Shown: positions 1,489 through 15,324 of the stretch, one piece after another
How positions within the stretch are numbered: position 1 is the stretch's first letter
Layout of the letters: every line of letters begins with the position of its first letter
Position numbers and translations under genes: made by a program
DNA from: Phyllobacterium chamaecytisi
GTDB taxonomy: Bacteria; Pseudomonadota; Alphaproteobacteria; Rhizobiales; Rhizobiaceae
Length of the DNA stretch: 64,000 bases
Assembly (NCBI RefSeq): GCF_020164455.1
Contig: NZ_JAIQWW010000003.1
Span: forward strand, 62,001 to 126,000
Reading direction: 5' to 3'
Notes under the pieces: generated by a model
Seen by the model: only the letters and a program-made list of their open reading frames with translations
Database searches by the model: none
What the model was told of the DNA's origin: nothing

Positions 1489-3201
1489 TTAGATATTCTC
1501 GGTGACCATTTCCCAAACATCGTGACCCTTACCCTTGAGGATGGCCCGGGCGCTGTAGACGGCCATTCCGACCACGGCTTCGGGAGAGACGAACGGCGTC
1601 GGCGGGTTGACCAGCTGCATTGGGTTCACCTTGACGTCCAGAAGAGCCGGACCGGGCTGGGCGAGCCATTCTCGGATGGCACCGTCGAGGTCATCGGCCT
1701 TCGTAACAGTGCGACCCCAAAGACCCATTGCGGTCGCAACGGCACCGAAGTTGGGATTTTCGAGGTGAGTGAAGACGGGTACAAGCCCCGCAGCCTTTTG
1801 CTCGATATCTACAAAGCCGAGCTTCGAGTTGTCATAGACCACAAGTTTAATCGGAAGCTTTTCCTGTACCGTCGTGAGAAGATCGCCCATCAGCATTGTC
1901 AGACCGCCGTCGCCGCAAAGGGCAATCACCTGGCGGCCGGGTTGGGCCTTCTGAAGCCCCAGTGCCGTAGGCATCCCGCCCGCCATTGTTCCGTGGAGCA
2001 TGCTCGCGAAGGTCCGGCGCTTGCCGTCCGTCTCAATATGCCGCATCATCCAAACTGCTGCTGTTCCATCGTCAGCGGCGAACAGGGCGTCTTCCGCGGC
2101 CAATTTGTTGATTATCTTGGTAAGATATGTGCCCGATATCTTCTCGTTCTTTGACGGAGTTTCGGCATCTGCCGCCTTCTTGTCCTCTTGGTAGCGGTTG
2201 ATGAACTCACGCATGAAGGTTTCATCACGGTGTTGTTCAAGACGGGGAAGCAGCGCCTCGAGTGTAGCTTTGATCGTTCCGACGACTCCAATGGTGACCG
2301 GATGTCTGCGGCCGATATGGGTCGGATCAATGTCGATCTGGATGATCTTGGCTTTGTCAGGGTAGAATTGCCTCCAGGCAAAGTCGGCTCCCAAGAGGAG
2401 AAGAACATCACAGTGAAGCACTGCCTTGTAACCAGCGGCTCCGCCGATCATGCCCGTCATTCCAACGTTGTACGGGTTGTCATGAGACACGAAGTCCTTG
2501 CCGCGAGAGGTGTGGGCCATGGGTGCTTTCAACCTAGCGGCCATCGATACAATAGCGTCATGTGCGCCTTCGCATCCAGAACCAGCGTATATCGCAATGT
2601 TGGTGCTTGAGTTCAGTATGGTCGCGATCTCATCGAGATCGTCCTCGCTTGGGCGAATAACCGGCACCCTTGCGTGGACACTGTAGGGGGGCTCATCATG
2701 TACCGGTGCGTCGGCTATGTCCGCCGGCACCACAAGTACAGCCACACCGCGGCGCGTTAGAGCGGCCTGGCAGGCGGCGACGATCTTACGACGGGCCTGT
2801 TCGGGGGTCGTAATCATGTCGCAGAATACGCTGCAGCCCTTGTACACTTCAACCAGATCGACCTCCTGTATCGACTGAAATCCGAGGTCACTTCTGAAAA
2901 TCTGCGTCGCGATCAAGATGACGGGCGCACGATTACGGTTGGCTTCGTAAAGACCATTGATGAAGTGCAGACTACCCGGGCCGCATGTTCCCGCGCACGC
3001 AGTCAACCTGCCCATCAACGACGCCTCGGCCGCGGCGGCGAAAGCGCCAGCCTCTTCATGGCGCATGTGCACCCAGTTGATATCGCTTTTGTCGATCGAC
3101 TGAGCGATCTGGTTCATTGTGTCGCCAACAATCCCATAGCATGTCTTGACTCCCGCGTTTTGCAGGGTCTCGACAAGCATCTCCGCGACTTTCTTGCTCA
3201 T
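1489..3201 (-). CDS. poxB: Pyruvate dehydrogenase (quinone) / pyruvate oxidase family, thiamine-diphosphate enzyme
   Basis: 570 aa, the normal length for PoxB. The family decarboxylates pyruvate to acetate and CO2 and passes electrons to membrane ubiquinone. The N-terminal thiamine-binding pyrimidine domain starts YGIVGDTMNQ, with the conserved glutamate in MRHEEAGAFAAAAEA. A central FAD/transhydrogenase-like domain follows. The C-terminal PP domain has the GDGG...N thiamine-diphosphate motif (GDGGLTMLMGDLL, then YDNSKLG). The same fold is used by acetolactate synthase, but the motif spacing and neighbouring cydA favour pyruvate:quinone oxidase. The C-terminal membrane-binding tail of E. coli PoxB cannot be confirmed by eye. 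Confidence 0.88.
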   Translation of the reverse strand: MSKKVAEMLVETLQNAGVKTCYGIVGDTMNQIAQSIDKSDINWVHMRHEEAGAFAAAAEASLMGRLTACAGTCGPGSLHFINGLYEANRNRAPVILIATQIFRSDLGFQSIQEVDLVEVYKGCSVFCDMITTPEQARRKIVAACQAALTRRGVAVLVVPADIADAPVHDEPPYSVHARVPVIRPSEDDLDEIATILNSSTNIAIYAGSGCEGAHDAIVSMAARLKAPMAHTSRGKDFVSHDNPYNVGMTGMIGGAAGYKAVLHCDVLLLLGADFAWRQFYPDKAKIIQIDIDPTHIGRRHPVTIGVVGTIKATLEALLPRLEQHRDETFMREFINRYQEDKKAADAETPSKNEKISGTYLTKIINKLAAEDALFAADDGTAAVWMMRHIETDGKRRTFASMLHGTMAGGMPTALGLQKAQPGRQVIALCGDGGLTMLMGDLLTTVQEKLPIKLVVYDNSKLGFVDIEQKAAGLVPVFTHLENPNFGAVATAMGLWGRTVTKADDLDGAIREWLAQPGPALLDVKVNPMQLVNPPTPFVSPEAVVGMAVYSARAILKGKGHDVWEMVTENI

Positions 3202-3317: not shown

Positions 3318-4571
3318 CTATGAAGTCAGGTCGTCAGGCCGCAGATATCGATAGACGCATCGTTCGAACTGCTCGTACCGTTTCATCAGACCCGGTTCGC
3401 AAAACGGAAGCGACTGGCTCATGAATACCGCTGCGACATTCGATGTCCGATCTATCCAGTAATGCGAATTCAGAACGCCAGCCCACCCGACTGACCCGGC
3501 ACCTCTCATTCCCGGGATATCATCTTCGTTGCGTAGAAAACCAAAGGTGTGTGTATGGCGGGTACCAGGGAAGGGATCGACATCTGCGGTAACTGGAGCG
3601 CACGACACCATCCTTGAGAATGAAAGGCCGTTCATCTGGTCAGTAAACATCTCATCTATGGACGCCGATGACAGGATGCGATTGCCGTCTAGCTCGCCGC
3701 CGTTTAGGAATAGCCTCAAGAATCTCAGATAGTCCGGCGCTGTGCTGTATAGCGCAGTGCCCATGCCGTAGAATTCCGGATGAGAGGGCGGATCCATCAG
3801 GACCTCGGCAAACTCACCGTCCGCCGACCTGCCTGAGACAGCGCAAAGATTGGTCCGCGCTACATCATCCACCTCGAAATAGGTATTGCGGAGGCCGAGG
3901 GGCTCGAAAATTTCCTCAGTACAGAACTTGTCAATTCTGCGACCGTCCACTGCTTCCACAACGAGGCCCAACCAATCGATGCTCGGGCCATAGCCCCATC
4001 GGGTGCCCGGCTCGGACATCATCGGATAGCACATCGATTGGAGAGTTCCATTGATGATGCTGGGATGGCCTGTCCTTTCGATATATTCAGCCACATTCGG
4101 ATTCCAGAATTCGTATTCCAGCCCCGATGTATGCGTAGCGAGGTGTCGTACTGTTGCCTGTGCCTTGGGGGGTCGTAGGATCGCTTTTCCGTCCTGATAT
4201 CCATCCAGAACACCAATTTGAGAGAACTGAGGTACGATGTCGGCGACTGGTGTGTCTGGGCCTAGCAGGCCCTTCTCGATCAACATCATGATAGCTACGG
4301 CGCAGTAGGGCTTCGACATCGAAAAGATTCTGAATACCGTATTTTCGTCTGCGCGCAGTCCCGGAGCAGCATCGCCCGAGGCTCCTGAGAATCTAACTCC
4401 GTCGCTATCACAGACCATCGCGACGAGAAATGGAGCGTCCCCCATGGCTACGCTGAAGTCGACAATCCGCTGGAGCTCCAAGGATCCCGTCGATGGGAGG
4501 CTCCCGTGCGGTTGCAATATGGTTAGCTCGTTGAGCCCGTTGGCTTCGAAAGCTTCTTCGAGCGACAACAT
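3318..4571 (-). CDS. Serine hydrolase, beta-lactamase class C / EstB-like family
   Basis: 417 aa. The SxxK nucleophile motif is SMSKPYCAVAI, near residue 100, and the second catalytic Tyr is probably in YGPSIDWLG (YxS/N-type motif). These are hallmarks of the class C beta-lactamase and carboxylesterase family. No signal peptide is visible, so a cytoplasmic esterase is more likely than a periplasmic beta-lactamase; the substrate is unknown. It is transcribed divergently from the winged-helix STAND regulator at 4721. A copy of the direct-repeat site found upstream of the kinase and SDR genes sits 94 nt upstream, pointing the same way as this gene, so it is a likely target of one of those regulators. 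Confidence 0.85.
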   Translation of the reverse strand: MLSLEEAFEANGLNELTILQPHGSLPSTGSLELQRIVDFSVAMGDAPFLVAMVCDSDGVRFSGASGDAAPGLRADENTVFRIFSMSKPYCAVAIMMLIEKGLLGPDTPVADIVPQFSQIGVLDGYQDGKAILRPPKAQATVRHLATHTSGLEYEFWNPNVAEYIERTGHPSIINGTLQSMCYPMMSEPGTRWGYGPSIDWLGLVVEAVDGRRIDKFCTEEIFEPLGLRNTYFEVDDVARTNLCAVSGRSADGEFAEVLMDPPSHPEFYGMGTALYSTAPDYLRFLRLFLNGGELDGNRILSSASIDEMFTDQMNGLSFSRMVSCAPVTADVDPFPGTRHTHTFGFLRNEDDIPGMRGAGSVGWAGVLNSHYWIDRTSNVAAVFMSQSLPFCEPGLMKRYEQFERCVYRYLRPDDLTS

Positions 4572-4664
4572 GTCCGTGTCTCCCTAACCGAGTTTCCGCG
4601 GTCTCGCCCTACTTGACGAAACCGCTAGTGACTGCTCGACAGTAGGTGAATATTTCGACCTCAA

Positions 4665-4693
4665 GTGAGTCGTGATATGTTAATTATTGCAAA
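4665..4693 (-). promoter_or_regulatory. Direct-repeat operator, copy 1 (upstream of serine hydrolase)
   Basis: On the minus strand this reads TTTGCA, 4 nt, TTAACAT, 4 nt, CGACTCAC. It matches the two better copies at 7578-7606 and 11608-11636 with identical spacing. The 10-nt period between half-sites is what OmpR-type winged helices use. It lies between divergent genes, 94 nt from the hydrolase start and 28 nt from the regulator start, so it could also serve autoregulation. This is the weakest of the three copies. Confidence 0.5.
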
Positions 4694-4720: not shown

Positions 4721-7552
4721 ATGAACTCCGACGAACGTGGCATCGCACATTTCGGCCCGTTTACCCTCAATGTCGCTGAGCGGAGCCTGACTAGGAATGG
4801 GTCGATCATCCCGTTGGGCGCACGCGCGCTGGACATTCTGGTAAATTTGGTTTCCAGAGCCGGAACGATTGTCAACCGACACCAGCTGATGGATCTAGTA
4901 TGGCGTGATGTGACGGTCGAGGAGGCTAACCTCAGGGCGCAGATGACCACACTTAGACGAACTCTCGGCGACGGAGAGGGCGGCAGTCGGTACATCGTCA
5001 ATGTTCCCGGCCGAGGCTACAGTTTCGTCAGCCATGTCACGTGGTCCGTCGAGCGCGGTCTCCGCGAAAGTCAAAAGGCCAGGCCGACGCATTCAAATCA
5101 GATGCCACCATCTCCTATCGAAAATCTGATCGGCCGTGCTGACGCGGTCCGCGATCTGACGGAAAGTTTGCTGGCAGACCGATTCGTCACCGTGGTGGGA
5201 GCAGGAGGGATCGGCAAGACGACTGTCGCAGTCGTCGTAGCAGATCAATTCTTGAAAAGGGGTAATTTGGTTTATTTCGTCGACCTGAGCACAGTTCATG
5301 ACCACACGGACATATCCTCGGCCATAGCGTCAGTATTGGAATGCCCGATGACAGGATCGGATGCAGATTTCGCGGTCGTTTCCTTTCTCGCCGGAAGAGA
5401 CGCGTTGCTCGTTTTAGATAATTGTGAGCACGTTTTAGAGGGCGCTGCACGGATTGCAGTTAGGATACTAGAGGCATCGCCAAACTTGAGGTTGCTGGCA
5501 ACAAGTCGGGAGCCTCTTAGGGCCTCAGGTGAAACGGTCCATATTCTTTCACCTTTGGACATCCCCGTGGAAAGTTATTTGTTGGCTGGGGAGGCGCTCA
5601 AGTTTTCTGCCGTGCAGTTGTTCATGGAACGGGCAGTATCGAGTGGTTTTGACGGTCCTCTTTCTGATGACGATGCGCCGTTCGTGGCAGAGTTGTGCCG
5701 CCGCATGGACGGTATAGCGCTCGCTATCGAACTTGCTGCAAGCCGGGTTGGTTCGTTCGGCATAAGGGGCACTGTCGAGCTTATTTCAGCAGGAACTGAA
5801 CTTTCAGTCCCGAACAGGCGAGGGGTATCACCTCGCCACCAGACGCTCCAGTCAATGGTGGCGTGGAGTGTAAACCTTCTCTCCGAAGCGGATAGGCGGT
5901 TTCTGTTAAGGCTCTCTGTTTTTGTAGGTCTATTCACCCTCGAAGCCGCCGCCGCGGTTGCCGGTGATGAGCAAGACAGGCGTGAAAGTGTAAATTCAGT
6001 TATAGCTTCACTTGTCGAGAAATCGCTGGTTTTTGTAACGCTGGCACAGGGAAGTATTTTTTATCGTCTGCTTGAGACAACGCGCGCCTACGCAGCCGTT
6101 GCACTACCTAGCAAGGAAGAAAGCATGAGAATTGACCATCGTCATGCTGCCTACTATTCGCAGTTCCTCTCTACGGTCTCAGAGAAAGTCGCAACAAACG
6201 CTAGGGGGACTGCTTCCTTCAGCCCACATCTCGGCAATCTGGCCAAAGCGCTTGCTTGGTGTTTCTCGGACAACGGTGATACGGCGATAGCAGTCAATCT
6301 CGTGGCGAACGCAGCCTATGTTCTCATGCAGTTGTCGCGGTTCAACGAATGTTATCGATGGTGCTCGCGTGCGCTGGAACTGCTTCCTGGCGACCAAGCC
6401 GGCGGCCCCCTGGAGCTTCGGCTTTCGGAAGCGCTCGCGAGTTCCGCCATGTATTCTTTGGGCAACCGGGATGAAACGAAGGCCCTATTGGAGAGGGCCC
6501 TGGCGCAAGCCGAGAAACTGAACGACGATCGTCGTCAGCTGAATATGCTGAGCGAGCTGAATTTCCTCTATGCGCGACGCGGGGACACTCAAGCCGCGCT
6601 TAAAACTGCGCAGCGGATATCGATCATTGCAGGCAAGCTCGGAGTCGTCGAAGACGAAGTCGCAGCAGAAATAATGCTAGCAGTTGCGTGCCATCATGCG
6701 GGCGATCAAGCCGGTGCATTGCAACATTGTCAAGCCGGGTTTCGGGCCGCACAAGAGGGAGGCTACGCCCAACTTGATCTGATCACGGAGGCCCGCGGTC
6801 GATTTATGTTCGCTAGGGCTTTATGGCTTTGTGGGTTCCCCGATCAAGCGCTCAGCCTGGCACGAGAGAAGATGAAGGAGATGGCTCAATACGCTCACCA
6901 CATCTCCTTTTGCATAGGGTTGACGTACTCCATCGCGTTGTTTGCATGGTCTGGCAACTTTGACGAAGCCGAGAGTGTCTGCGAAGCGTTGTTGACTCAC
7001 GCTGACAAGCACGCGGTCGCCGATTTTCATTCAATCGCTCAGGCCTTCAAAGGTTGGGTCTATGTCGAGACTGATCGATGCGAAGAGGGCACGGAGTTAC
7101 TTCGGACATCGCTGCAGGCGCTTCATGCTCAGGAATATTTCACCCTCACGCCGATGATACAGTGTTACCTCGCCAAGGGACTTTCCAACTTGGGCCAATT
7201 CGACGAAGCCGAGGCTACCGTGGAGCAGGCCATCAATACAGTCTACCAGATCGGCGACTTCAAGACTTTACCCGACCTCCTGCGAACCCACGGCGAAATT
7301 TTGTGCGCCCGGTCTGGACACGATTTTGCGAAAGCCGAGGACCAATTCCGAGCGTCTATCCGCGAAGCACGACGCCAGTCAGCGATAGGTTGGGAAATGA
7401 AGGCGGCCATCCAGTTGGCTGGCATGCTACACGGACTCCAGCGTGATGACGAGGCCCATAAAGTGCTGCGAGGCGTCTATGATCGGTTCACCGAGGGTTT
7501 TGATACAGCGGACCTCGTCATGGCGAGGACAATTCTTGGCCAGACGCAGTAG
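4721..7552 (+). CDS. Winged-helix / STAND (NB-ARC-like) ATPase / TPR-like transcriptional regulator, paralog 1
   Basis: 943 aa. Residues ~8-105 form an OmpR/CadC-type winged-helix DNA-binding domain (FGPFTLN..., ending GRGYSFV). A STAND ATPase follows with P-loop GAGGIGKTTV near residue 160, Walker B ALLVLDNCEHV near 230-240 and the TSREPL sensor motif near 260. The C-terminal half (~470-940) is helical and repeat-rich, as in TPR signal-sensing regions (RRGDTQAAL, LGQFDEAEATV). STAND regulators generally hold ATP in a closed state until a ligand binds the repeats, then oligomerise; the ligand here is unknown. No membrane segment is seen, so it is cytoplasmic. A clear paralog lies at 8679. The AGGAGG site is about 12 nt from the ATG, rather far. 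Confidence 0.88.
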   Translation: MNSDERGIAHFGPFTLNVAERSLTRNGSIIPLGARALDILVNLVSRAGTIVNRHQLMDLVWRDVTVEEANLRAQMTTLRRTLGDGEGGSRYIVNVPGRGYSFVSHVTWSVERGLRESQKARPTHSNQMPPSPIENLIGRADAVRDLTESLLADRFVTVVGAGGIGKTTVAVVVADQFLKRGNLVYFVDLSTVHDHTDISSAIASVLECPMTGSDADFAVVSFLAGRDALLVLDNCEHVLEGAARIAVRILEASPNLRLLATSREPLRASGETVHILSPLDIPVESYLLAGEALKFSAVQLFMERAVSSGFDGPLSDDDAPFVAELCRRMDGIALAIELAASRVGSFGIRGTVELISAGTELSVPNRRGVSPRHQTLQSMVAWSVNLLSEADRRFLLRLSVFVGLFTLEAAAAVAGDEQDRRESVNSVIASLVEKSLVFVTLAQGSIFYRLLETTRAYAAVALPSKEESMRIDHRHAAYYSQFLSTVSEKVATNARGTASFSPHLGNLAKALAWCFSDNGDTAIAVNLVANAAYVLMQLSRFNECYRWCSRALELLPGDQAGGPLELRLSEALASSAMYSLGNRDETKALLERALAQAEKLNDDRRQLNMLSELNFLYARRGDTQAALKTAQRISIIAGKLGVVEDEVAAEIMLAVACHHAGDQAGALQHCQAGFRAAQEGGYAQLDLITEARGRFMFARALWLCGFPDQALSLAREKMKEMAQYAHHISFCIGLTYSIALFAWSGNFDEAESVCEALLTHADKHAVADFHSIAQAFKGWVYVETDRCEEGTELLRTSLQALHAQEYFTLTPMIQCYLAKGLSNLGQFDEAEATVEQAINTVYQIGDFKTLPDLLRTHGEILCARSGHDFAKAEDQFRASIREARRQSAIGWEMKAAIQLAGMLHGLQRDDEAHKVLRGVYDRFTEGFDTADLVMARTILGQTQ

Positions 7553-7577
7553 GCCGAGCATTGCGACTGGCGGCTAA

Positions 7578-7606
7578 TTTGCAGTTATTTGCAACGTTGG
7601 ACTCGC
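7578..7606 (+). promoter_or_regulatory. Direct-repeat operator, copy 2 (upstream of histidine kinase)
   Basis: Reads TTTGCA, GTTA, TTTGCAA, CGTT, GGACTCGC. The copy at 11608 has the same three blocks with the same two 4-nt spacers. It lies in the 256-nt gap after regulator 1, about 200 nt before the kinase ATG. The rest of that gap shows no gene. Confidence 0.6.
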
Positions 7607-7808
7607 AAAGCCTGGGCGGTGCGGACAAGCTCCCAGCACCTGCCACCATATCCGAAAGCACTGTGGTGTCTGCAGCGGGGTATGGGAGTGTCAAAAGTCG
7701 ATTGGCCGTGAGAGGTTCCATTTGCTCCGTGTGTGAAACAAGTGCTTTCCCCGCATTTGGATCGAGTGGGCCACTTTAGGGTGCGCTGTTGATCCGAGGA
7801 GTACGCAA

Positions 7809-8540
7809 ATGCACGATCCCCTGCCGATTGACGCTCGCCTGTGCGCGACATTCTTGGCTCATGAGGTGAATAAATCCGCCTCTGCTGTTCTTATCAACGC
7901 GGAAGCTGCCTTACGCTGGCTGGATAAGGGCCCCGCTGATGTCATGCGCGCACAAAAGTCTCTTCGACTCTTGATCCGCAACACGGAGCGTACATGCGAA
8001 ATCATCAGCCGATTCCGGGACCCGTCGTGGCTTCTGCGTTCAGACCGTGAAGCGGTCAATGTCAATGACATCGCAAATGGCACCCTGTCGCTGATGTTTT
8101 CCGAAATTGCAGATGCCAGCATCCGGGTCGAGAGAGATTTCTGCCAGAGCCTCCAGCTCATTTCGGCGGATCGCGCACAGCTGGAACACGTCTTCACGAA
8201 TTTGATCGCGAATAGCATCGACGCTATTCGCGCGACGCGGCGGCGAGCGGGATATCTGCGGGTAGGCACTTATCAGGTCGACCAAGGAGGAGTGTTGATA
8301 GCGATCGAGGACTCCGGCGAGCCAATACCGGCTCACCACGTGGATCACGTTTTTGACCTCCTGCATACGACCAAGCCGTATGGATCGGGGGTTGGTCTGG
8401 CTATCTCCCGAGCAATCATAGACAATCACGGTGGACGCATCTGGGCCCGAAGAAATGATTGGGGTGAGGGAAGCACATTCCGCATGATCTTGCCGGGTGT
8501 CGGCCATGCCTCAGCAGAAGCGGCGGATAACGAATCATGA
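7809..8540 (+). CDS. Soluble sensor-less histidine kinase (HATPase) protein
   Basis: 243 aa, consisting only of the kinase core. The dimerisation/phosphoacceptor helix is LAHEVNKSASAVLIN (His-Glu kept, the usual NQPL replaced), followed by the N box NLIANSIDAI, a G1 box reduced to IEDSGEPIP, and the G2 box GSGVGLAISR with a typical C-terminus. There is no membrane segment, PAS or GAF domain, so input must come from a partner protein. A good GAGGAG ribosome site sits 9 nt before the ATG. It lies between the two STAND regulators, and no response regulator adjoins it. The degenerate G1 box leaves ATP binding somewhat uncertain. Confidence 0.85.
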   Translation: MHDPLPIDARLCATFLAHEVNKSASAVLINAEAALRWLDKGPADVMRAQKSLRLLIRNTERTCEIISRFRDPSWLLRSDREAVNVNDIANGTLSLMFSEIADASIRVERDFCQSLQLISADRAQLEHVFTNLIANSIDAIRATRRRAGYLRVGTYQVDQGGVLIAIEDSGEPIPAHHVDHVFDLLHTTKPYGSGVGLAISRAIIDNHGGRIWARRNDWGEGSTFRMILPGVGHASAEAADNES

Positions 8541-8678
8541 GCCCACTAACGGCGGTCTATTTTGGCGCAGGACGTCCGCGATGAGTCGTCCGAGCAGTCG
8601 GTTCCATAGGCGGAAAAAAATGATAGGATCGGATTTGGGGAGCTGATGATCGCACCAGTTGCGCTGGAGTAGTCGAAC

Positions 8679-11531
8679 ATGAGTGTACGACTTGTTTCGC
8701 AGGAAGACGCGCGTCTATTCGGTCCGTTTCGGTTCGTAAAAGCGCAGCGATCGCTGACGCGCGAAGGTATTCCTGTCCTCATCGGAGGGCGGGCGCTGGA
8801 CGTTCTCGGGGTGCTGCTAGACAATCCCGGAAGCGTGGTGAGCGGGCGCCATTTGATCGAACAGGTCTGGAAAGGCGTCACAGTGGAGGATGCAAATCTT
8901 CGCACCCAGCTAACCGCGCTCCGCAAGGCTTTGGGCGACGGAATCAACGGGTCGAGGTACATCATCAATGTTCCGGGCCAAGGTTACTTGTTTGCTGCTC
9001 CCGTATCGGGCGACAAGTTGGATAAAGAGACAGGATATCAGGCGGCTTCCGAACCCGCACAATATGGTGCCCTTCCGAAACTACCTCGTTCGATCGTGGG
9101 GAGAGACGAGATAGTTGGAAGGCTTACTTCCATGCTGACCTCACGCCGGTTTGTGACTTTAGTGGGTACTGGCGGAATAGGAAAGACGACCGTCGCGATC
9201 GCAGTTGCGAATTCGCTTGTCAGTGCGTGCAAAATGGGCGTTTTCTTCATCAATCTGCAAGCTATAACGAACGGTGCGGACGTCTCCAGCTTCATCGCCT
9301 CCTCTGTCGGGTGTTTCATTCAGGGTTCGGACCCCGAGCAGTCTCTACGCACGTTCCTGTCCGGGCGCGAAACGTGCCTAATTCTCGACAACTGCGAGCA
9401 TGTGATAGAGATAGCCGCTCCGTTGGCCCAGCGTCTCCTCGATGGTGTTCAATCACTGTCGATACTCGCCACCAGCCGCGAGGCCCTTAGGGTCAGAGGC
9501 GAGAATATTCTTTTGCTGCCGCCTCTGGGCCTCCCCGAGGACGGACCGATGACTGCGTCAAAGGCACTTGCTTCACCAGCAGTGCAGCTATTTATGGAAA
9601 GGGCCGCAACCGGAGGCTTTGCGGGGAGACTGACCGACATCGATGCCCCTCTGGTGGTCGATATTTGCAGACGTCTAGACGGGATTGCCTTGGCGATCGA
9701 ACTGGCTGCCAGCCGCGTCGGGTTCTACGGAATACGTGGAACTCTAGAGCTGTTGAACGAAGGAAGCGGTCTACAGCTTCTGGGCACACGGACCACCTCA
9801 TCGCGACACCAAACGCTCGAATCTCTTCTCGACTGGAGCGTCAAGCTATTGGCCCCTCACGAGCGGACCATCCTTTTCGAACTGGCGATTTTCGGCTCCG
9901 ATTTCACCCTGGAGGATGCAGACGCGGTCGTTGGGAAGGACGGCGCGCACGCCGATGTTAGGGCTGCAATAGCCAGCCTGGTCGAAAAGTCATTGGTGCA
10001 AAATTCCTCCGATTTGCAAATGGCGAAATATCGAATTCTCGGTGTAACCCGCGCTTATGCCATGGAAAGACTCGAAACTACGGGTTTCAAAGGCCGGCTT
10101 GCCGAGCGCTTAGCCAATCACTTGAGAGACTTTTTAACACGTCTTCAGGGGCCACAGGCTGCCGATTGCTGTGACGAACTTTGTGCTTATCACATCGGAA
10201 ACATACAGATTGTCCTGCCCTGGTGTTTCTCGGAAGAGGGCGACAAGGTATTGGGGATCGAAATCGCCGGGAAAGCGACTCGCCTCTTTATGGCGAAATC
10301 GCACTTTGCGCTCTGCCATCACTGGTGCAGAGAGGCCTTGAATGCGCTTCGCTCCGAACATGAGGGGACGGCGTTCCACCTTAGCTTGCTCGAAGCTCTG
10401 GCCCGATCTAGTATATATGTGAATGGCGGCAGGGAAACGAGGGTATTGATCCAGAATGCACTGGACCTCGCACGGACACGGCGGGACGACAAATGCCAAC
10501 TCAATCTCCTGGCCGACTTGAACGTATTCCTCACCCGCCAAGGAGAATTCAGCGCCGCGTTGGATGCAGCGGAGCAAAGCTTTGCTGTCGCCAAAAAAAT
10601 ACAGGGGCGCAGTGAGACGATCCTGGCGGAATGGATGTTGGCGGCGTCATACCACTTGGCTGGCGACCAGTACGCGGCCATTCAGCATGCTGAGATCGGC
10701 CAGGCGCTGGCCCGCATCGAACCTCCGGTCAAGCTCGATTTGTTTCAGGAGGCGAGAGTCCGGTTTGCATTGGCGCGCTCTCTTTGGCTCCACGGTTATC
10801 CGGATCGGGCTCTCGCTGCGGCACGGCTTGCTGTTGCAGAGAGCGCTAAGAACCCTGAACACGTCTCGTACTGTCTGTCGTTGATATATGCGACACCCGT
10901 ATTTCTCTGGTCTGGCAAGTATGATGAAGCCTCACCTTATATCGAGATGGCCATCACTCAGGCGACCAAGCAGGGCTTGAGCGCCTTCAGGTCGCTTGGG
11001 CAAGCGCTAGCGGGGGAGCTTTTGGTTTTAACTGGCAAACCGTATCTCGGCGTAGAGGTCTTAAGAGAGGCAATCGATGGTATGCAGGCCAACCGCAATG
11101 ACATCGTGGTCTCCACGACGTCTGCTGTTTTAGCAAATGCTCTGGCTGCCTGTTCTAGGTGGAACGACGCGCACGCCGTTGTCGACGCTGCCATCTACGC
11201 CGCGGAGCGCCGTGCGGAGAAGATATGGATGCCTGACCTGCTCATGGCGAAAGCGGGGATCCTTTTGCGGCAAGTCAATCCGGCAATACCCCAAGCTGAG
11301 GCATTGCTGATGCGAACTATGGTGCTTGCGGAACAGCAGTCGGCTCTTAGCTGGCAGCTGCGGGCTGCAATTCCCTTAGCGAGATCATGGACCGTGGCGG
11401 GTAAAAGGTCGCAAGCAATCGAGCTGCTTACTGTCCTTCTGAGCCGTTTCACAGAGGGCTTCGAAACGTCCGATCTAGTTTGCGCACGCATGATGCTGGC
11501 ATCCTTGCAGACCATCAAAGCCACCGCGTAA
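8679..11531 (+). CDS. Winged-helix / STAND (NB-ARC-like) ATPase / TPR-like transcriptional regulator, paralog 2
   Basis: 950 aa and collinear with the protein at 4721. The N-terminal OmpR-type winged helix spans ~12-108 (FGPFRFVKAQRSLTREG to GQGYLFA). The P-loop is GTGGIGKTTV near 165, Walker B is CLILDNCEHV near 235, and TSREALR follows near 265. The C-terminal ~470 residues are helical repeats. Whole segments are near-identical to paralog 1 (for example DGIALAIELAASRVG), so the pair arose by duplication around the kinase gene. A fragment of a third copy's N-terminus lies at 23652. The recognition helices are very similar (DVTVEEANLRAQ versus GVTVEDANLRTQ), so the two could share the TTTGCA repeat site; that is an inference. 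Confidence 0.88.
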   Translation: MSVRLVSQEDARLFGPFRFVKAQRSLTREGIPVLIGGRALDVLGVLLDNPGSVVSGRHLIEQVWKGVTVEDANLRTQLTALRKALGDGINGSRYIINVPGQGYLFAAPVSGDKLDKETGYQAASEPAQYGALPKLPRSIVGRDEIVGRLTSMLTSRRFVTLVGTGGIGKTTVAIAVANSLVSACKMGVFFINLQAITNGADVSSFIASSVGCFIQGSDPEQSLRTFLSGRETCLILDNCEHVIEIAAPLAQRLLDGVQSLSILATSREALRVRGENILLLPPLGLPEDGPMTASKALASPAVQLFMERAATGGFAGRLTDIDAPLVVDICRRLDGIALAIELAASRVGFYGIRGTLELLNEGSGLQLLGTRTTSSRHQTLESLLDWSVKLLAPHERTILFELAIFGSDFTLEDADAVVGKDGAHADVRAAIASLVEKSLVQNSSDLQMAKYRILGVTRAYAMERLETTGFKGRLAERLANHLRDFLTRLQGPQAADCCDELCAYHIGNIQIVLPWCFSEEGDKVLGIEIAGKATRLFMAKSHFALCHHWCREALNALRSEHEGTAFHLSLLEALARSSIYVNGGRETRVLIQNALDLARTRRDDKCQLNLLADLNVFLTRQGEFSAALDAAEQSFAVAKKIQGRSETILAEWMLAASYHLAGDQYAAIQHAEIGQALARIEPPVKLDLFQEARVRFALARSLWLHGYPDRALAAARLAVAESAKNPEHVSYCLSLIYATPVFLWSGKYDEASPYIEMAITQATKQGLSAFRSLGQALAGELLVLTGKPYLGVEVLREAIDGMQANRNDIVVSTTSAVLANALAACSRWNDAHAVVDAAIYAAERRAEKIWMPDLLMAKAGILLRQVNPAIPQAEALLMRTMVLAEQQSALSWQLRAAIPLARSWTVAGKRSQAIELLTVLLSRFTEGFETSDLVCARMMLASLQTIKATA

Positions 11532-11607
11532 GGCAGACCGCACACTTTCTGCCGTGTTTGCGACGATGTCACTCTCTCACTCAAGGAACTCCCCACCGCC
11601 TGTCGGA

Positions 11608-11636
11608 TTTGCACCTTTTTGCAATACTGAACTCGC
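11608..11636 (+). promoter_or_regulatory. Direct-repeat operator, copy 3 (upstream of SDR gene)
   Basis: Reads TTTGCA, CCTT, TTTGCAA, TACT, GAACTCGC: the same blocks and spacing as the copy at 7578. It lies 129 nt before the SDR start codon and 77 nt after regulator paralog 2. The intact match in both half-sites and in the distal ACTCGC block makes chance unlikely. Confidence 0.6.
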
Positions 11637-11764
11637 TACATCGGCCTAGCGGCGTCACTTTGAACCGATGAGAGCCGTCGTGAATGATTACGAGCTTCAG
11701 GACGGGAACAACGCCCCCAAACACGAAAGCTCATTATCCAACATACAATCAAGGAGAAATCGGC

Positions 11765-12556
11765 ATGGATTTGCAACTCGCTGGCAAGACAGCCTTAGTT
11801 ACGGGCGCGACCGGCGGGATCGGCCTCGAGATCGCGAGATCGTTGGTTGCCGAAGGCGCTAGCGTAGTCATCCCTGGCAGAAACAAACTGCGTTTGGCAG
11901 CCGCTGTTAACAACATCGGACTCAGCAGCGGAGGAAAAGTTAGAGGAATCGACGCTGACACATCGACTGCCGCGGGAGCCGCCGTGGTTGCCGAGGAACT
12001 GCCCGAAGTGGATATTTTGATCAACAACCTGGGAATATATGAGGCAAAGCCTTTCGCAGAGATATCCGACGAGGATTGGCTCCGTTACTTTGAGGTCAAT
12101 GTAATGGGCGGTATTCGGCTATCTCGCGCTTACCTTCCCGGGATGCTGAAGCGGGACTGGGGGCGGATAATCTTCATCTCGAGCGAGTCAGGCCTGATGA
12201 CGCCTTCCGTCATGGCTCATTACGGCATGACGAAAACAGCGCAGTTGGCCGTCTCTCGCGGATTGGCGAACGAGACCAGGGGCACGGGCGTAACTGTCAA
12301 CGCAGTCCTGCCCGGCCCCACACGCTCGGATGCGAGTATTGAATTTCTAAGGTCGCTGTCGTCAAATCCGGAGGCAAGCGAAGCCCAAGTCGAGAGCGAA
12401 TTCTTCAGGACACATCGTTCGATGTCTTTGCTCCAACGGCTCATATTGCCTGAGGAGATCGCCGATCTAGTGGCCTTTGTGTCGAGCCCGCGTTCCGCTG
12501 CAACCAATGGAGCCGCGATACGGGCCGACGGGGGAGTCATCCCAACCATTGCCTGA
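11765..12556 (+). CDS. Short-chain dehydrogenase/reductase (SDR family)
   Basis: 263 aa from the ATG at 11765, chosen because AAGGAGA lies 8 nt upstream and the protein then begins MDLQLAGKTALVTG, the usual SDR start; a longer in-frame start at 11684 is unlikely. The nucleotide-binding TGATGGIG motif, NNLG structural motif, catalytic Ser (ISSESG) and YxxxK (YGMTK) are all present. The family reduces or oxidises carbonyl/alcohol substrates with NAD(P)H; the substrate cannot be told from sequence. It is the last gene of the STAND-kinase block and carries its own copy of the direct-repeat site. Its stop codon lies 3 nt from a truncated efflux gene, which looks like a recombination junction. Confidence 0.9.
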   Translation: MDLQLAGKTALVTGATGGIGLEIARSLVAEGASVVIPGRNKLRLAAAVNNIGLSSGGKVRGIDADTSTAAGAAVVAEELPEVDILINNLGIYEAKPFAEISDEDWLRYFEVNVMGGIRLSRAYLPGMLKRDWGRIIFISSESGLMTPSVMAHYGMTKTAQLAVSRGLANETRGTGVTVNAVLPGPTRSDASIEFLRSLSSNPEASEAQVESEFFRTHRSMSLLQRLILPEEIADLVAFVSSPRSAATNGAAIRADGGVIPTIA

Positions 12557-12793: not shown

Positions 12794-12904
12794 AGCTGTG
12801 CTCCGGCGTCTTTAGGACGCGTTCAAGGGGTCGGGTAGGAAGCCCGAAGTGAAGTAATGCCTCAGATGTCCCAGGACGGCCGTATCGGACAGCCGCTGTC
12901 GTCA

Positions 12905-12942
12905 TTGTGCCGAACGAGATTTGGTCCGATTTTTCGGCACAA
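12905..12942. repeat. Inverted repeat in the leader region of the ActR-like gene
   Basis: TTGTGCCGA and TCGGCACAA form perfect 9-nt arms separated by 20 nt. It sits in the 375-nt non-coding stretch between the efflux remnant and the regulator gene at 13169. It may be an operator or leader hairpin; no T-tract follows. Nothing else is recognised in this gap. Confidence 0.35.
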
Positions 12943-13168
12943 GAATTGGATATCAGCAGCGTATTATCGGCCGCATCTATACAGTGGTCTAGGTTGGAAA
13001 CGTTATTGGTCGAGACCCAACCAAGTAATGGAACACCAGCTCCGTTCGCGGTTCAAGCCACGCGCCGGTTCACAACTGCCAATTCGGCGTGGCCTACCTG
13101 CATCTAAGTATAGTGTTAGGTCCTTGGCGCACCGGCTAACCTCTATATCCAAACGAAGGAGGTCCGAC

Positions 13169-13747
13169 ATGTTTATGCCACCACCTGCCATGCCAAAATC
13201 GCCGTTCAACCAGAACGTATGCTGTGTTCTGGTCGCCGATCCAGCAATCGATCGCAATTCAGACCTCGTCCGGCACCTCGTCCGCAGCGGCTACTTCGTC
13301 AAACTGTCGACGACATTGGAGGAGAGTCGCTCATTTATCTCTTCAATTCCGATTTCTTTTGCGTTGATCGAGCTTCGCTTTCAGGATGGCGACGGATTCT
13401 CGTTGATCGAGGATGTCCGAAAAAACAACCCGAATTCACGTATTCTGGTCCACAGCGCGTTTTGCAATATTTCAGTCGCGGTTCACGCCGCCATGAGGGG
13501 AGCAACTGACGTCCTGCCGAAACCGATCAAGACCGAGTTTGTGCTGCAGCTTCTGCTTGGACAGTATTGCAGCAAGGCCCTTCTTCCAGATGTGCTTCCC
13601 TGCCCAAACGCAGTGCGTAAGGAGCATATCCGAACTGTGTACTCAGCATGCAACCACAACGTAGCGCGGGCGGCGCGCGCGTTGTCCATGCACCGACGGA
13701 CACTTCAAAGGTTGCTCGAGCGGACCGAGATGTTGGTTTCCCCTTGA
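13169..13747 (+). CDS. ActR/RegA-like response regulator with a degenerate receiver
   Basis: 192 aa from the ATG at 13169, which has a strong GGAGG site 6 nt upstream; an upstream in-frame start at 12857 gives a non-conserved extension. The receiver domain (~15-125) has the RegA layout, but the phosphoacceptor position reads ALIELRFQDGDG, with Glu instead of Asp, and the acidic pocket is VADPAID rather than a run of Asp. The conserved Lys (LPKPI) remains. The C-terminus is a Fis-type helix-turn-helix (NVARAARALSMHRRTLQRLL) as in PrrA/ActR/RegA redox regulators. Glu at this site often mimics phosphorylation, so it may be constitutively active. No cognate ActS/RegB kinase is nearby. Confidence 0.85.
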   Translation: MFMPPPAMPKSPFNQNVCCVLVADPAIDRNSDLVRHLVRSGYFVKLSTTLEESRSFISSIPISFALIELRFQDGDGFSLIEDVRKNNPNSRILVHSAFCNISVAVHAAMRGATDVLPKPIKTEFVLQLLLGQYCSKALLPDVLPCPNAVRKEHIRTVYSACNHNVARAARALSMHRRTLQRLLERTEMLVSP

Positions 13748-13804: not shown

Positions 13805-15046
13805 ATGTTCCAGAATTTGAGTTGGTCTCAGGCCATCGTTGATCCTACCGTTCAGGCGGGGACGCTCGCTGTCGTGGGGGTTTTTACCACGCGTGTCGGT
13901 ATGCGCGGCTTTCCCAAAATAAGGTTCGCTGGCCAAGTGTTCTTCTTCGTGGCGCTTACCGTTCTCCTCCTCTATCACGGGATCGTTCCTTACCAGGAAG
14001 AACCTCAGGCTTCCGAGGCGTTCGAACGCATATTCATTGCGTTGGCAAAGATCATCTGGTGGATCTATGCCGCCTCAGCCCTCGTCGGATTTGTTCGGGT
14101 GTATCTGAGGTTCGAGGGCCAGCCAAGGGAGGGACGGCTTGTCCAAGACCTTGTCGTCGGACTCATTTATCTCGGAGCAACACTATCGGTCGTAGCCTAT
14201 GTCCTCGGGGTACCAGTTGGAACGTTGATCGCGACGTCGGGAGTATTCGCAATCATTCTCGGCCTAGCGATGCAGAGCACCCTAAGCGACGTTTTTTCTG
14301 GGATCGCACTCAACCTTGGTCGGCCGTATTCAATCGGCGACTGGATAGTCCTGAATGACAAAATCGAAGGGAGGGTTGTGGAGACCAACTGGCGATCCAC
14401 CCATCTTCTGAACTCAACGAACGATCTCGTCGTCCTTCCGAACAGCTTTCTGGCGAAGGTCGGTTTGACAAATCTCAGCAGTCCGGACCGCAGCCATGGC
14501 GTCAGTCTGGAAGTGGAGGTAGCTCCAACGACCATGCCCAGTATGATATCGGCCGTGATGACATCGGTGCTGCTCAACAGTACAAAAAGCCTGCCTGAAC
14601 CTCCGCCGACTGTACAGATCAAAGGTATCACCGCAACTGCGCTTGAACTCGAGCTGTCGTTCCGCGTACGGGACATTTCAGAGGTTCCAGCAGCGAAGAA
14701 TGAGTTATACGACCTACTTTACAGGCACCTGAGAGCGGCAGGTTTGGTACTTGCTGGCGCCGAGGCGGCACAGAGTACCCCCGGCGATAGAATCGAAACC
14801 ACAACCCAAAGAAAGAAAACACCACTCTCGCCTTTGAATGCCGTTCCGCTGTTCTCGTCGCTCACCGATGAGGAGAAGGAAATTCTGGCGCGCTCTATGA
14901 AACGGCGATCCTTCAAGAAAGACGAGCACATTATCGAACAAGGCGATACTGCCTCATCGTTGACGATCGTTCGCGCCGGAGCTGTGTCGCGCCATGCGGC
15001 AGGACGGAACGAGGGAGACGGAAGTCGGACGGTTGGCTCCTGGTGA
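13805..15046 (+). CDS. MscS-family mechanosensitive channel with C-terminal cyclic-nucleotide-binding domain, frameshifted
   Basis: 413 codons in this frame. N-terminal membrane helices (~15-130) are followed by the MscS pore/beta domain (IILGLAMQSTLSDVFSGIALN, SIGDWIVLNDKIEGRVVETNWRST), which opens when the membrane is stretched. From ~345 a cNMP-binding domain starts (FSSLTDEEKEIL, HIIEQGDTASSLTIVRAGAVS) and then breaks at about 14,990. The natural continuation (GRLAPGEYFGETGFLLG) is in the next frame until about 15,080, and the domain end is in a third frame (15043-15324). Two single-base insertions explain this. The channel core is intact and could still work; the nucleotide-sensing part is split. 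Confidence 0.8.
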   Translation: MFQNLSWSQAIVDPTVQAGTLAVVGVFTTRVGMRGFPKIRFAGQVFFFVALTVLLLYHGIVPYQEEPQASEAFERIFIALAKIIWWIYAASALVGFVRVYLRFEGQPREGRLVQDLVVGLIYLGATLSVVAYVLGVPVGTLIATSGVFAIILGLAMQSTLSDVFSGIALNLGRPYSIGDWIVLNDKIEGRVVETNWRSTHLLNSTNDLVVLPNSFLAKVGLTNLSSPDRSHGVSLEVEVAPTTMPSMISAVMTSVLLNSTKSLPEPPPTVQIKGITATALELELSFRVRDISEVPAAKNELYDLLYRHLRAAGLVLAGAEAAQSTPGDRIETTTQRKKTPLSPLNAVPLFSSLTDEEKEILARSMKRRSFKKDEHIIEQGDTASSLTIVRAGAVSRHAAGRNEGDGSRTVGSW

Positions 15047-15324
15047 ATACTTTGGCGAGACAGGGTTTCTTCTCGGGCGTCGGGGAGGCGGCCACGCTTC
15101 GTGCATTGACCGCAGTTGTAGTCTACGAGATTGATCAGTCTAGCCTTGCCCCTCTGCTGCAGGAACGAGCAGCTTTAGCGGAAGAACTCGCGTTGACGTT
15201 GTCACACCGTGTTGAGTACGGTCTGTCCCTTACAAACAGGGGCATGACCCAGAAGGGCAAATCCGTCCCGTCGCTAGTTGCTAGGATCAAGAGCCTCTTT
15301 GAGGTTCCGCAAAGCGAACTGTGA
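15043..15324 (+). pseudogene. C-terminal end of the MscS-cNMP channel, out of frame
   Basis: Codes GVGEAATLRALTAVVVYEID, the end of a cyclic-nucleotide-binding barrel, and a basic tail. It is continuous with the channel gene at 13805 if one base is removed from the GGG near 15,081 and one near 14,993 (GCC before ATG). The apparent ATG/GTG start at 15043 is not preceded by a ribosome site, so it is a fragment of the upstream gene and not a separate one. Assembly error and true mutation cannot be separated from sequence alone. Confidence 0.7.

Follow-up and report, generated by a model that had tools for sequence, protein, structure and literature searches.

A candidate triple-repeat operator and predicted MalT-like winged-helix STAND activators in Phyllobacterium chamaecytisi

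The window considered here is a stretch of 64,000 nucleotides (C23:62001-126000, contig NZ_JAIQWW010000003.1) from the 6.36-Mb draft genome of the soil bacterium Phyllobacterium chamaecytisi, and towards its left end stand two large regulator genes, R1 (4721-7552) and R2 (8679-11531), with a gene for a 243-aa histidine kinase between them and genes for a serine hydrolase and an SDR oxidoreductase on either side. We propose, with a probability of roughly 0.77 on the strength of sequence comparison, that R1 and R2 are MalT-like, ligand- and ATP-gated class II activators with the hydrolase, kinase and SDR genes as targets, the kinase not being a partner that joins them. What carries this proposal is a candidate operator of three direct repeats (TTNRC) with a 10-bp period, which precedes all three genes at a fixed distance from a -10 element. 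The features concerned are listed below.

1489..3201, minus strand: PoxB-like ubiquinone-dependent pyruvate dehydrogenase, possible distal gene of the hydrolase promoter
3318..4571, minus strand: serine hydrolase of beta-lactamase/esterase fold, predicted target
4639..4644, minus strand: putative -10 element TACTGT for the hydrolase, set one base farther from its operator than at this genome's other sites
4665..4693, minus strand: operator facing the serine hydrolase, 28.4 bits (25.2 with the matrix made from other genomes only), 94 nt before the start codon
4721..7552, plus strand: R1, 943 aa, winged helix (aa 8-109, recognition helix 68-82), STAND ATPase and TPR
7578..7606, plus strand: operator before the kinase, exact TTTGCAN4TTTGCA, 203 nt before the start codon
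7626..7631, plus strand: putative -10 element CAAGCT of the kinase promoter, A at +49 and T at +53
7809..8540, plus strand: FixL-like histidine kinase transmitter without an input domain, 243 aa, predicted target
8679..11531, plus strand: R2, 950 aa, R1-type architecture by alignment, 41% identical to R1
11608..11636, plus strand: operator before the SDR, exact TTTGCAN4TTTGCA
11656..11661, plus strand: putative -10 element CACTTT of the SDR promoter, A at +49 and T at +53
11765..12556, plus strand: SDR oxidoreductase, predicted target, frame open from 11684

The operator in this genome and in others

An open-frame check finds all five genes open as listed, including the hydrolase and the SDR that a preliminary description of this DNA had placed at the edges; for the SDR, the start at 11765 given there is the most plausible because AGGAGA precedes it. 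The operator follows the consensus TTNRCA-N4-TTNRCA-N4-T(T/A)AACT(C/G)GC, and with a putative -10 hexamer at +48 to +53, the third repeat together with ACTCG would occupy the -35 position, about 20 bp before it. The motif starts 25 nt past the R1 stop codon and 76 nt past that of R2, and the two gaps share ATTTGCA-N4-TTTGCAA-N3-TG-N-ACTCGC, a pattern read from these same two sites which, with up to three mismatches, recurs nowhere else in the window and in none of 100 shuffles. Across the whole genome the strict pattern has six sites, five of them within about 24 kb (C23:49928-73635), and its backwards control has none; A at +49 and T at +53 are both present in five of the six, the hydrolase site being the exception. 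Exact TTTGCA-N4-TTTGCA occurs three times genome-wide, namely after R1, after R2 and at C26:26446, on the contig of a third relative, where it stands before a truncated FAD-oxidase frame. This last site and its leader are identical, in the letters shown, in another Phyllobacterium (L194); in both loci (L184:6447-7099 for C26, and L194) an intact operator and leader precede the truncated FAD-oxidase, which has 186 aa against 991 aa for the C23 protein. A sigma-54 promoter was rejected as a reading of the motif, the GG of the -24 box being missing by eye.

A matrix built from four sites of this genome was iterated over 121 loci (2.42 Mb), after which 32 sites exceeded the best Markov-shuffle score (threshold 21.1, shuffle 20.6). 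The sets scanned were 67 proteobacterial regulator flanks of other genomes (1.35 Mb), 20 Phyllobacterium control stretches (0.4 Mb) and 54 flanks from other phyla (0.98 Mb). At 19 bits or more, the four-site matrix finds 10 sites in the proteobacterial flanks and none in either of the other sets; the other-phyla flanks hold none at 16 bits or more and six at 13 or more, and the window from 15001 onward has no match of at least 13 bits. The 32-site matrix, partly trained on the flanks, gives 39 sites of at least 16 bits there, none in the controls (best 13.4) and one in the other phyla, of 27.2 bits and within a regulator gene. The 27.2-bit site in a Chloroflexi locus (L059), likewise inside the regulator gene, was taken as chance. 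With a matrix made instead from 26 sites outside this genome, which had been identified by their resemblance to the sites within it, the top three scores in the window are the three promoters listed above (27.2, 25.5 and 25.2 bits), followed by 11.2.

All 17 sites of at least 13 bits in 14 annotated loci are intergenic (non-coding fraction 0.204, P 2e-12), 16 of them face the next coding sequence on their strand, and nine end 46-85 nt before its start; nine of the 14 loci have such a site. Columns outside the matrix are biased as well: of 47 sites, 39 have A at +49 (P 6e-21) and 30 have T at +53 (P 1.5e-9), the pattern of -11A and -7T of a -10 box. The two repeats of a site vary together, agreeing at 73 of 96 variable positions (49.5 ± 4.0 when permuted, 0/10000), and in loci where Phe or Tyr follows the invariant Arg72 of the recognition helix, the best site has a repeat starting with C (12 of 12 loci vs 5 of 21 others, Fisher 2e-5). 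With a looser pattern run over 16 regulator-bearing genomes, 14 of 42 matches have a regulator no more than 10 kb away, against an expectation of 0.38, or 10 of 34 when this genome is left out.

Several results nevertheless weigh against the activator proposal. The first round of the iteration yielded just nine sites, this genome's included, above 22.4 (best shuffle 21.9), and the four-site matrix separates flanks from controls less sharply at lower scores (12 vs 2 at 16 bits or more, 31 vs 5 at 13 or more), which slightly lowers our confidence. Five of the 14 annotated loci have no site of at least 13 bits, and Neoroseomonas lacus (L016), whose locus has the fullest gene set, has none of at least 9 bits. 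Sites of related loci are not independent, so that the P and permutation values given above are optimistic. The correlation between recognition helix and repeat base reflects two or three independent changes (the tree shows three at this residue), counts the near-copies L136-L139 among its 12 loci and has an exception in L182; with so few independent changes, we rejected it as proof of co-evolution. Bulk enrichment of the looser pattern across genomes is not seen (42 matches vs 39 for the backwards control), and within the genus sites occur in five of nine genomes with a regulator and three of 10 without, showing no clear link, so that presence or absence of sites was set aside as support.

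Architecture and kinship of the regulators

Both regulators have an OmpR/PhoB-type winged-helix domain (Pfam Trans_reg_C, cut-off 26.2 bits: R1 E 8.5e-13, 48.6 bits; R2 E 3.8e-12, 46.5 bits), and CadC, ToxR and OmpR are among its best PDB sequence matches. Pfam matches to STAND/NB-ARC, nSTAND and AAA_16 are weak, all under the curated cut-offs; across 23 aligned sequences including R1 and R2, G160, G163, G165 and K166, D233, C235 and E236, T261-E264, and G331, L334 and A335 are invariant, and these residues correspond to the Walker A, Walker B with D-x-C-E, TSRE sensor and G-x-x-LA motif that mark the NB-ARC/NOD core of STAND ATPases. TPR matches are found in R1 and none in R2, which nonetheless aligns with R1 end to end at 41% identity across 935 aligned columns. 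The shared architecture of winged helix, STAND ATPase and TPR that the preliminary description gave for two proteins of 943 and 950 aa is thereby borne out, in R2 through this alignment. Its near-identical segments hold, at this identity, for short motifs and not beyond them, and the tree places R1 closer to a Rhizobium sp. WYJ-E13 protein than to R2.

The AlphaFold model of R1 (mean pLDDT 85.9, pTM 0.72) runs from the winged helix through a disordered, low-confidence linker (111-128) to the ATPase and the helical-repeat (TPR) region, with helices extending to the C-terminus. Its best PDB matches are the STAND-TPR protein PH0952 (6mfv) and Apaf-1, and domain III of MalT (1hz4) stands at rank 23. 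Neither a BTA domain nor a GerE (LuxR-type) domain was found in R1 or R2 at E ≤ 0.001 in Pfam, and in the model it is the ATPase that comes after the linker; no receiver domain was matched in either protein.

In a FastTree phylogeny of 58 regulators computed without the DNA-binding domain, R1, R2 and the WYJ-E13 protein form a clade within which the latter (53% identity to R1 by tblastn) is closer to R1 than R2 is. Two further full-length relatives lie in the same genome (C26:11707 and C23:329769). Regulators of the R1 kind occur in nine of 20 genus genomes at E ≤ 1e-80 and in eight of 199 family genomes at E ≤ 1e-120 (this genome counted in both, and at most four candidates scored per genome in the family), and tblastn with R1 matches 508 plasmid records, 128 of them over at least 80% of its length; where the rows listed are annotated, they are named only in general terms, for instance "winged helix-turn-helix domain-containing protein". 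Short forms of about 500-660 aa, with winged helix and ATPase and little or no TPR, lie near full-length ones in L012, L013, L014, L028, L145, L147 and L159, and in four Pseudomonas they are convergent with the full-length regulators; they are possibly heteromeric partners or sensor-less versions. Bradyrhizobium plasmids show three full-length regulators in succession (L164:2888-11841 and L178:3992-15725), with a LuxR-type regulator between them in L178.

Neighbourhood, targets and kinases

The preliminary description had taken the five genes for a self-contained module and named conserved gene order elsewhere as its check. This exact set is seen in this genome only, among genus, family, order and the 67 flanks, and by that check the conserved five-gene module was rejected; the genes that do recur next to such regulators are others, lying mostly to the left. 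Directly left of the locus, this genome has genes for an FAD-linked oxidase, malonate decarboxylase (mdc), an alpha/beta hydrolase, Ohr, a PAS kinase, CydB, CydA and PoxB. We compared 15 proteins of this C23 cluster with the 67 proteobacterial flanks, the 20 controls and 50 other-phyla flanks. MdcH, MdcB, MdcE and the AEC transporter each have relatives in four of 67 flanks, the alpha/beta hydrolase in 16 and Ohr in 12, all with none in the controls; CydA, CydB and PoxB each in three, again with none in the controls (other phyla: CydA 1/50, PoxB 3/50); and the PAS kinase in three flanks and one control. None of the 67 flanks holds a relative of the FAD-linked oxidase or of the response regulator, and a single flank holds one of the serine hydrolase, at 27% identity. 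SDR relatives of 26-33% identity are found in 23 regulator flanks, two controls and nine other-phyla flanks, with none above 33% in the 67 flanks, so that proximity of an SDR is by itself weak evidence and only the operator singles out particular SDRs.

Gene by gene, these counts are mostly small against the controls, and the loci include close kin; what tells, in our comparison, is the meeting of several cluster genes in one locus. One 20-kb stretch of N. lacus holds CydA, CydB, the alpha/beta hydrolase (74%), Ohr, the regulator, MdcE, MdcB, AEC, MdcH and a PoxB relative; L132 has the alpha/beta hydrolase (80%), mdc, Ohr and an SDR, and L165 and L166 have the alpha/beta hydrolase (77% and 81%), mdc and AEC. 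The WYJ-E13 locus as a whole was not met again: among 204 plasmid records with a match, the only one covering at least 80% is itself. The five-gene locus is the right edge of a cluster for malonate decarboxylase, Ohr, PAS kinase, cytochrome bd and PoxB, parts of which recur beside relatives of R1 and R2.

Candidate targets vary from locus to locus. Next door to the window, sites stand before the FAD-linked oxidase and before the alpha/beta hydrolase that precedes the mdc genes. P. zundukense (L165) has sites before an alpha/beta hydrolase-mdc run, an SDR pair and a Dps-like gene, and Sinorhizobium sp. B11 (L166) before an acetoacetate decarboxylase-alpha/beta hydrolase-mdc run and a PAS kinase. 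Elsewhere they precede epoxide hydrolases (L136, L150, L152, L177, L180), Ohr (L176), zinc alcohol dehydrogenases (L156, L183), an SDR (L132), an isochorismatase (L023), a flavodoxin-type reductase (L013), AraC-type regulators (L012, L022, L025) and a PAS kinase (L163); the sites in L012, L136, L176, L177 and L183 reach only 13-15 bits, and some targets are uncertain where open frames were called by length. In Paraburkholderia sp. FT54 (L167) the site that follows the regulator points at an open frame that matches a transposase.

The serine hydrolase (best NCBIfam match AcmB, 301 bits vs a cut-off of 550) heads a minus-strand run of six genes that continues with PoxB (687 bits vs a cut-off of 792), CydA, CydB, the PAS kinase and Ohr, with gaps of 116, 269, none, 74 and 3 nt; given the common strand and these gaps, one long transcript from the hydrolase to Ohr is possible, of which the hydrolase may be the first gene. 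To the right of the SDR, 12857-13747 encodes an ActR/PrrA-like response regulator with Glu, by alignment, at the receiver's phosphorylated-Asp position and a retained Fis-type helix-turn-helix. Further on, 13805-15324 encodes an MscS-type channel whose partial cyclic-nucleotide-binding match stops at 15046 and is carried on by an overlapping frame at 15043-15324, which looks like a frameshift or sequencing error.

The 243-aa kinase is a transmitter alone (HATPase_c, E 5e-20), with no PAS or other input domain in Pfam, in agreement with the preliminary description, and its best PDB sequence matches are FixL fusions. Its H-box reads HEVN, and in an alignment of seven kinases it retains H18, N131, N135, D168, G170, T187-K189 and G192/194/196; the G1 box is partly degenerate (DxGxG to DSGEP, the second Gly replaced). 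There is no match at E ≤ 1e-45 in 19 other genus genomes (all candidates scored), and in the family, with as many as 14 candidates per genome scored, none of the 198 other genomes has one at E ≤ 1e-40; at 1e-38 the kinase matches in five of 297 order genomes, its own counted, the other four being in longer frames of at least 524 aa. In the regulator flanks only general kinase likeness was found (7/67 flanks and 1/20 controls, up to 33% identity). We rejected the idea that it is the broken end of a longer kinase: the 256 nt upstream contain the operator and could not accommodate a PAS domain.

A 606-aa PAS kinase, encoded some 6 kb to the left of R1, is the kinase that the R1 locus has in common with the locus of R1's closest kin: in WYJ-E13 its counterpart, 65% identical across 597 columns, lies divergent to the regulator and has an operator. 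The PAS kinase of this genome shows no operator of its own in L185, scanned to 4 bits, and so would be reachable only by read-through. Kinases thus lie downstream of operators in three loci (the window, L163 and L166), each time a different one. At L166:3718-3746 the operator is just 16 nt ahead of the annotated PAS kinase start, a distance that probably puts the real start codon further in.

Proposed mechanism, alternatives and known systems

We envisage R1 and R2 as cytoplasmic one-component STAND activators of the MalT/AfsR kind. By analogy with those two, a small inducer would bind the TPR region, and the ATPase core would open and swap ADP for ATP, allowing protomers to assemble. As the sequence supports, the OmpR-type winged helices would then bind the three direct repeats, whose 10-bp period is one helical turn, and, with the third repeat at the -35 position some 20 bp before the -10 element, would recruit RNA polymerase in a class II, sigma-adapting mode, a contact with sigma region 4 being suggested by MalT and AfsR. 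The targets here would be the serine hydrolase, the kinase (perhaps with R2 behind it), the SDR, the FAD-linked oxidase and the alpha/beta hydrolase before the malonate-decarboxylase genes. As R1 precedes and R2 follows the kinase, a cascade suggests itself: R1 would switch on the kinase-R2 unit, and the remaining targets would answer to R2 or to both regulators. No other step of the scheme is so uncertain.

It is possible, albeit unlikely, that the operator is read by another factor, either a PhoB/OmpR-type response regulator or a sigma-like factor, and that R1 and R2 bind elsewhere. PhoB-type response regulators likewise work through direct repeats that overlap -35, the nearest STAND regulator is more than 10 kb away for two of the six sites in this genome, and the three genus genomes that match the pattern without such a regulator fit a separate reader. 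On the other hand, the STAND regulator, by which the loci were fetched, is their sole common feature while the target genes vary, the motif is missing from control stretches at high scores, and the repeat's first base tracks the regulator's recognition helix, if through few independent changes. We consider it decidedly improbable that the STAND proteins assemble with the 243-aa kinase into a single signalling complex whose output is the two enzymes, in line with the earlier suggestion that the orphan kinase joins the regulators. The gene order here and the operator shared by enzymes and kinase would suit such a complex, as would the phosphorylation of AfsR, a STAND activator, by kinases, one of them, AfsK, encoded nearby, as described in the AfsR report (PMC10936776). 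A histidine kinase, however, needs a receiver, for which R1 and R2 have no Pfam match, and the downstream response regulator has Glu at its phosphorylation site; the kinase, moreover, has no match at E ≤ 1e-40 in the 198 family genomes searched and recurs in flanks only as the distant likeness noted above. An operator before the kinase makes it a more likely target than co-receptor. Finally, since the motif follows both regulator genes closely, it could be a functionless remnant of a local duplication that copied a regulator with its downstream DNA. This we regard as very improbable indeed, because neutral DNA should have lost all likeness by the time R1 and R2 reached 41% identity, and like sites precede non-homologous genes and are found in other species too, with their spacing to the -10 box fixed.

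The activator proposal retains the regulatory logic of the preliminary description, which is partly supported even though the exact module is not: the two enzymes are probably outputs because hydrolase and SDR share the same operator-plus-minus-10 promoter, as does the kinase. Speculatively, the underlying biology is the use of malonate or malonate esters. Malonate causes a respiratory block, and PoxB, cytochrome bd and the FAD-linked 2-hydroxyacid dehydrogenase might bypass it. From the mdc genes beside relatives (this genome, L165, L166, L132 and L016) and this general biochemistry, our guess for the inducer is malonate or its esters; ligands probably differ between branches, because other relatives adjoin epoxide hydrolase or Ohr without mdc. 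We would put at even odds the broader idea of a large, undescribed class of proteobacterial MalT-like activators with one DNA code (a triple 10-bp repeat in place of -35, a base preference following one helix residue, readable targets), one branch of which would govern a malonate-tolerance regulon of malonate decarboxylation, Ohr, cytochrome bd and PoxB in root-associated bacteria. A scannable operator at a fixed distance from -10 would give predicted targets to common regulators now known by generic names, make the wiring of a large, little-studied family testable, offer a bench system for STAND activation beyond E. coli and Streptomyces, and provide malonate or its esters as a chemical lead for the inducer.

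STAND activators are already known as a kind. In the open-licence literature searched, we found no description of the winged-helix-STAND-TPR form without BTA or GerE in Proteobacteria, its operator or its regulon, consistent with the preliminary description, which did not recognise a described system here. The 243-aa kinase has a transmitter like those of FixL/AtoS-type kinases and differs in its lack of a PAS or other input domain and its partly degenerate G1 box. With PhoB/OmpR and CadC/ToxR-type regulators, R1 and R2 share the DNA-binding domain and, for PhoB, tandem direct repeats near -35, whereas a STAND-TPR module stands where the receiver would be. With MalT of E. coli and with PH0952 they share the STAND ATPase core and TPR sensor, as the fold matches of R1 indicate; MalT is described as autoinhibited via sensor-ATPase contacts (PMC6468293). 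MalT and other LAL regulators bind DNA through a C-terminal LuxR-type (GerE) domain, for which R1 and R2 show no match; these have an N-terminal OmpR-type winged helix, and the triple-repeat operator is proposed here. AfsR, the large SARP of Streptomyces, also combines an N-terminal OmpR-type winged helix with a STAND core and TPR; the report on it has it engaging a box that overlaps -35 together with sigma region 4, and ATP binding relieving inhibition by its NOD and TPR parts (PMC10936776). R1 and R2 differ from AfsR in having no BTA match, in the 10-bp triple repeat, in belonging to Proteobacteria, and in having predicted targets in catabolism and detoxification rather than antibiotic production.

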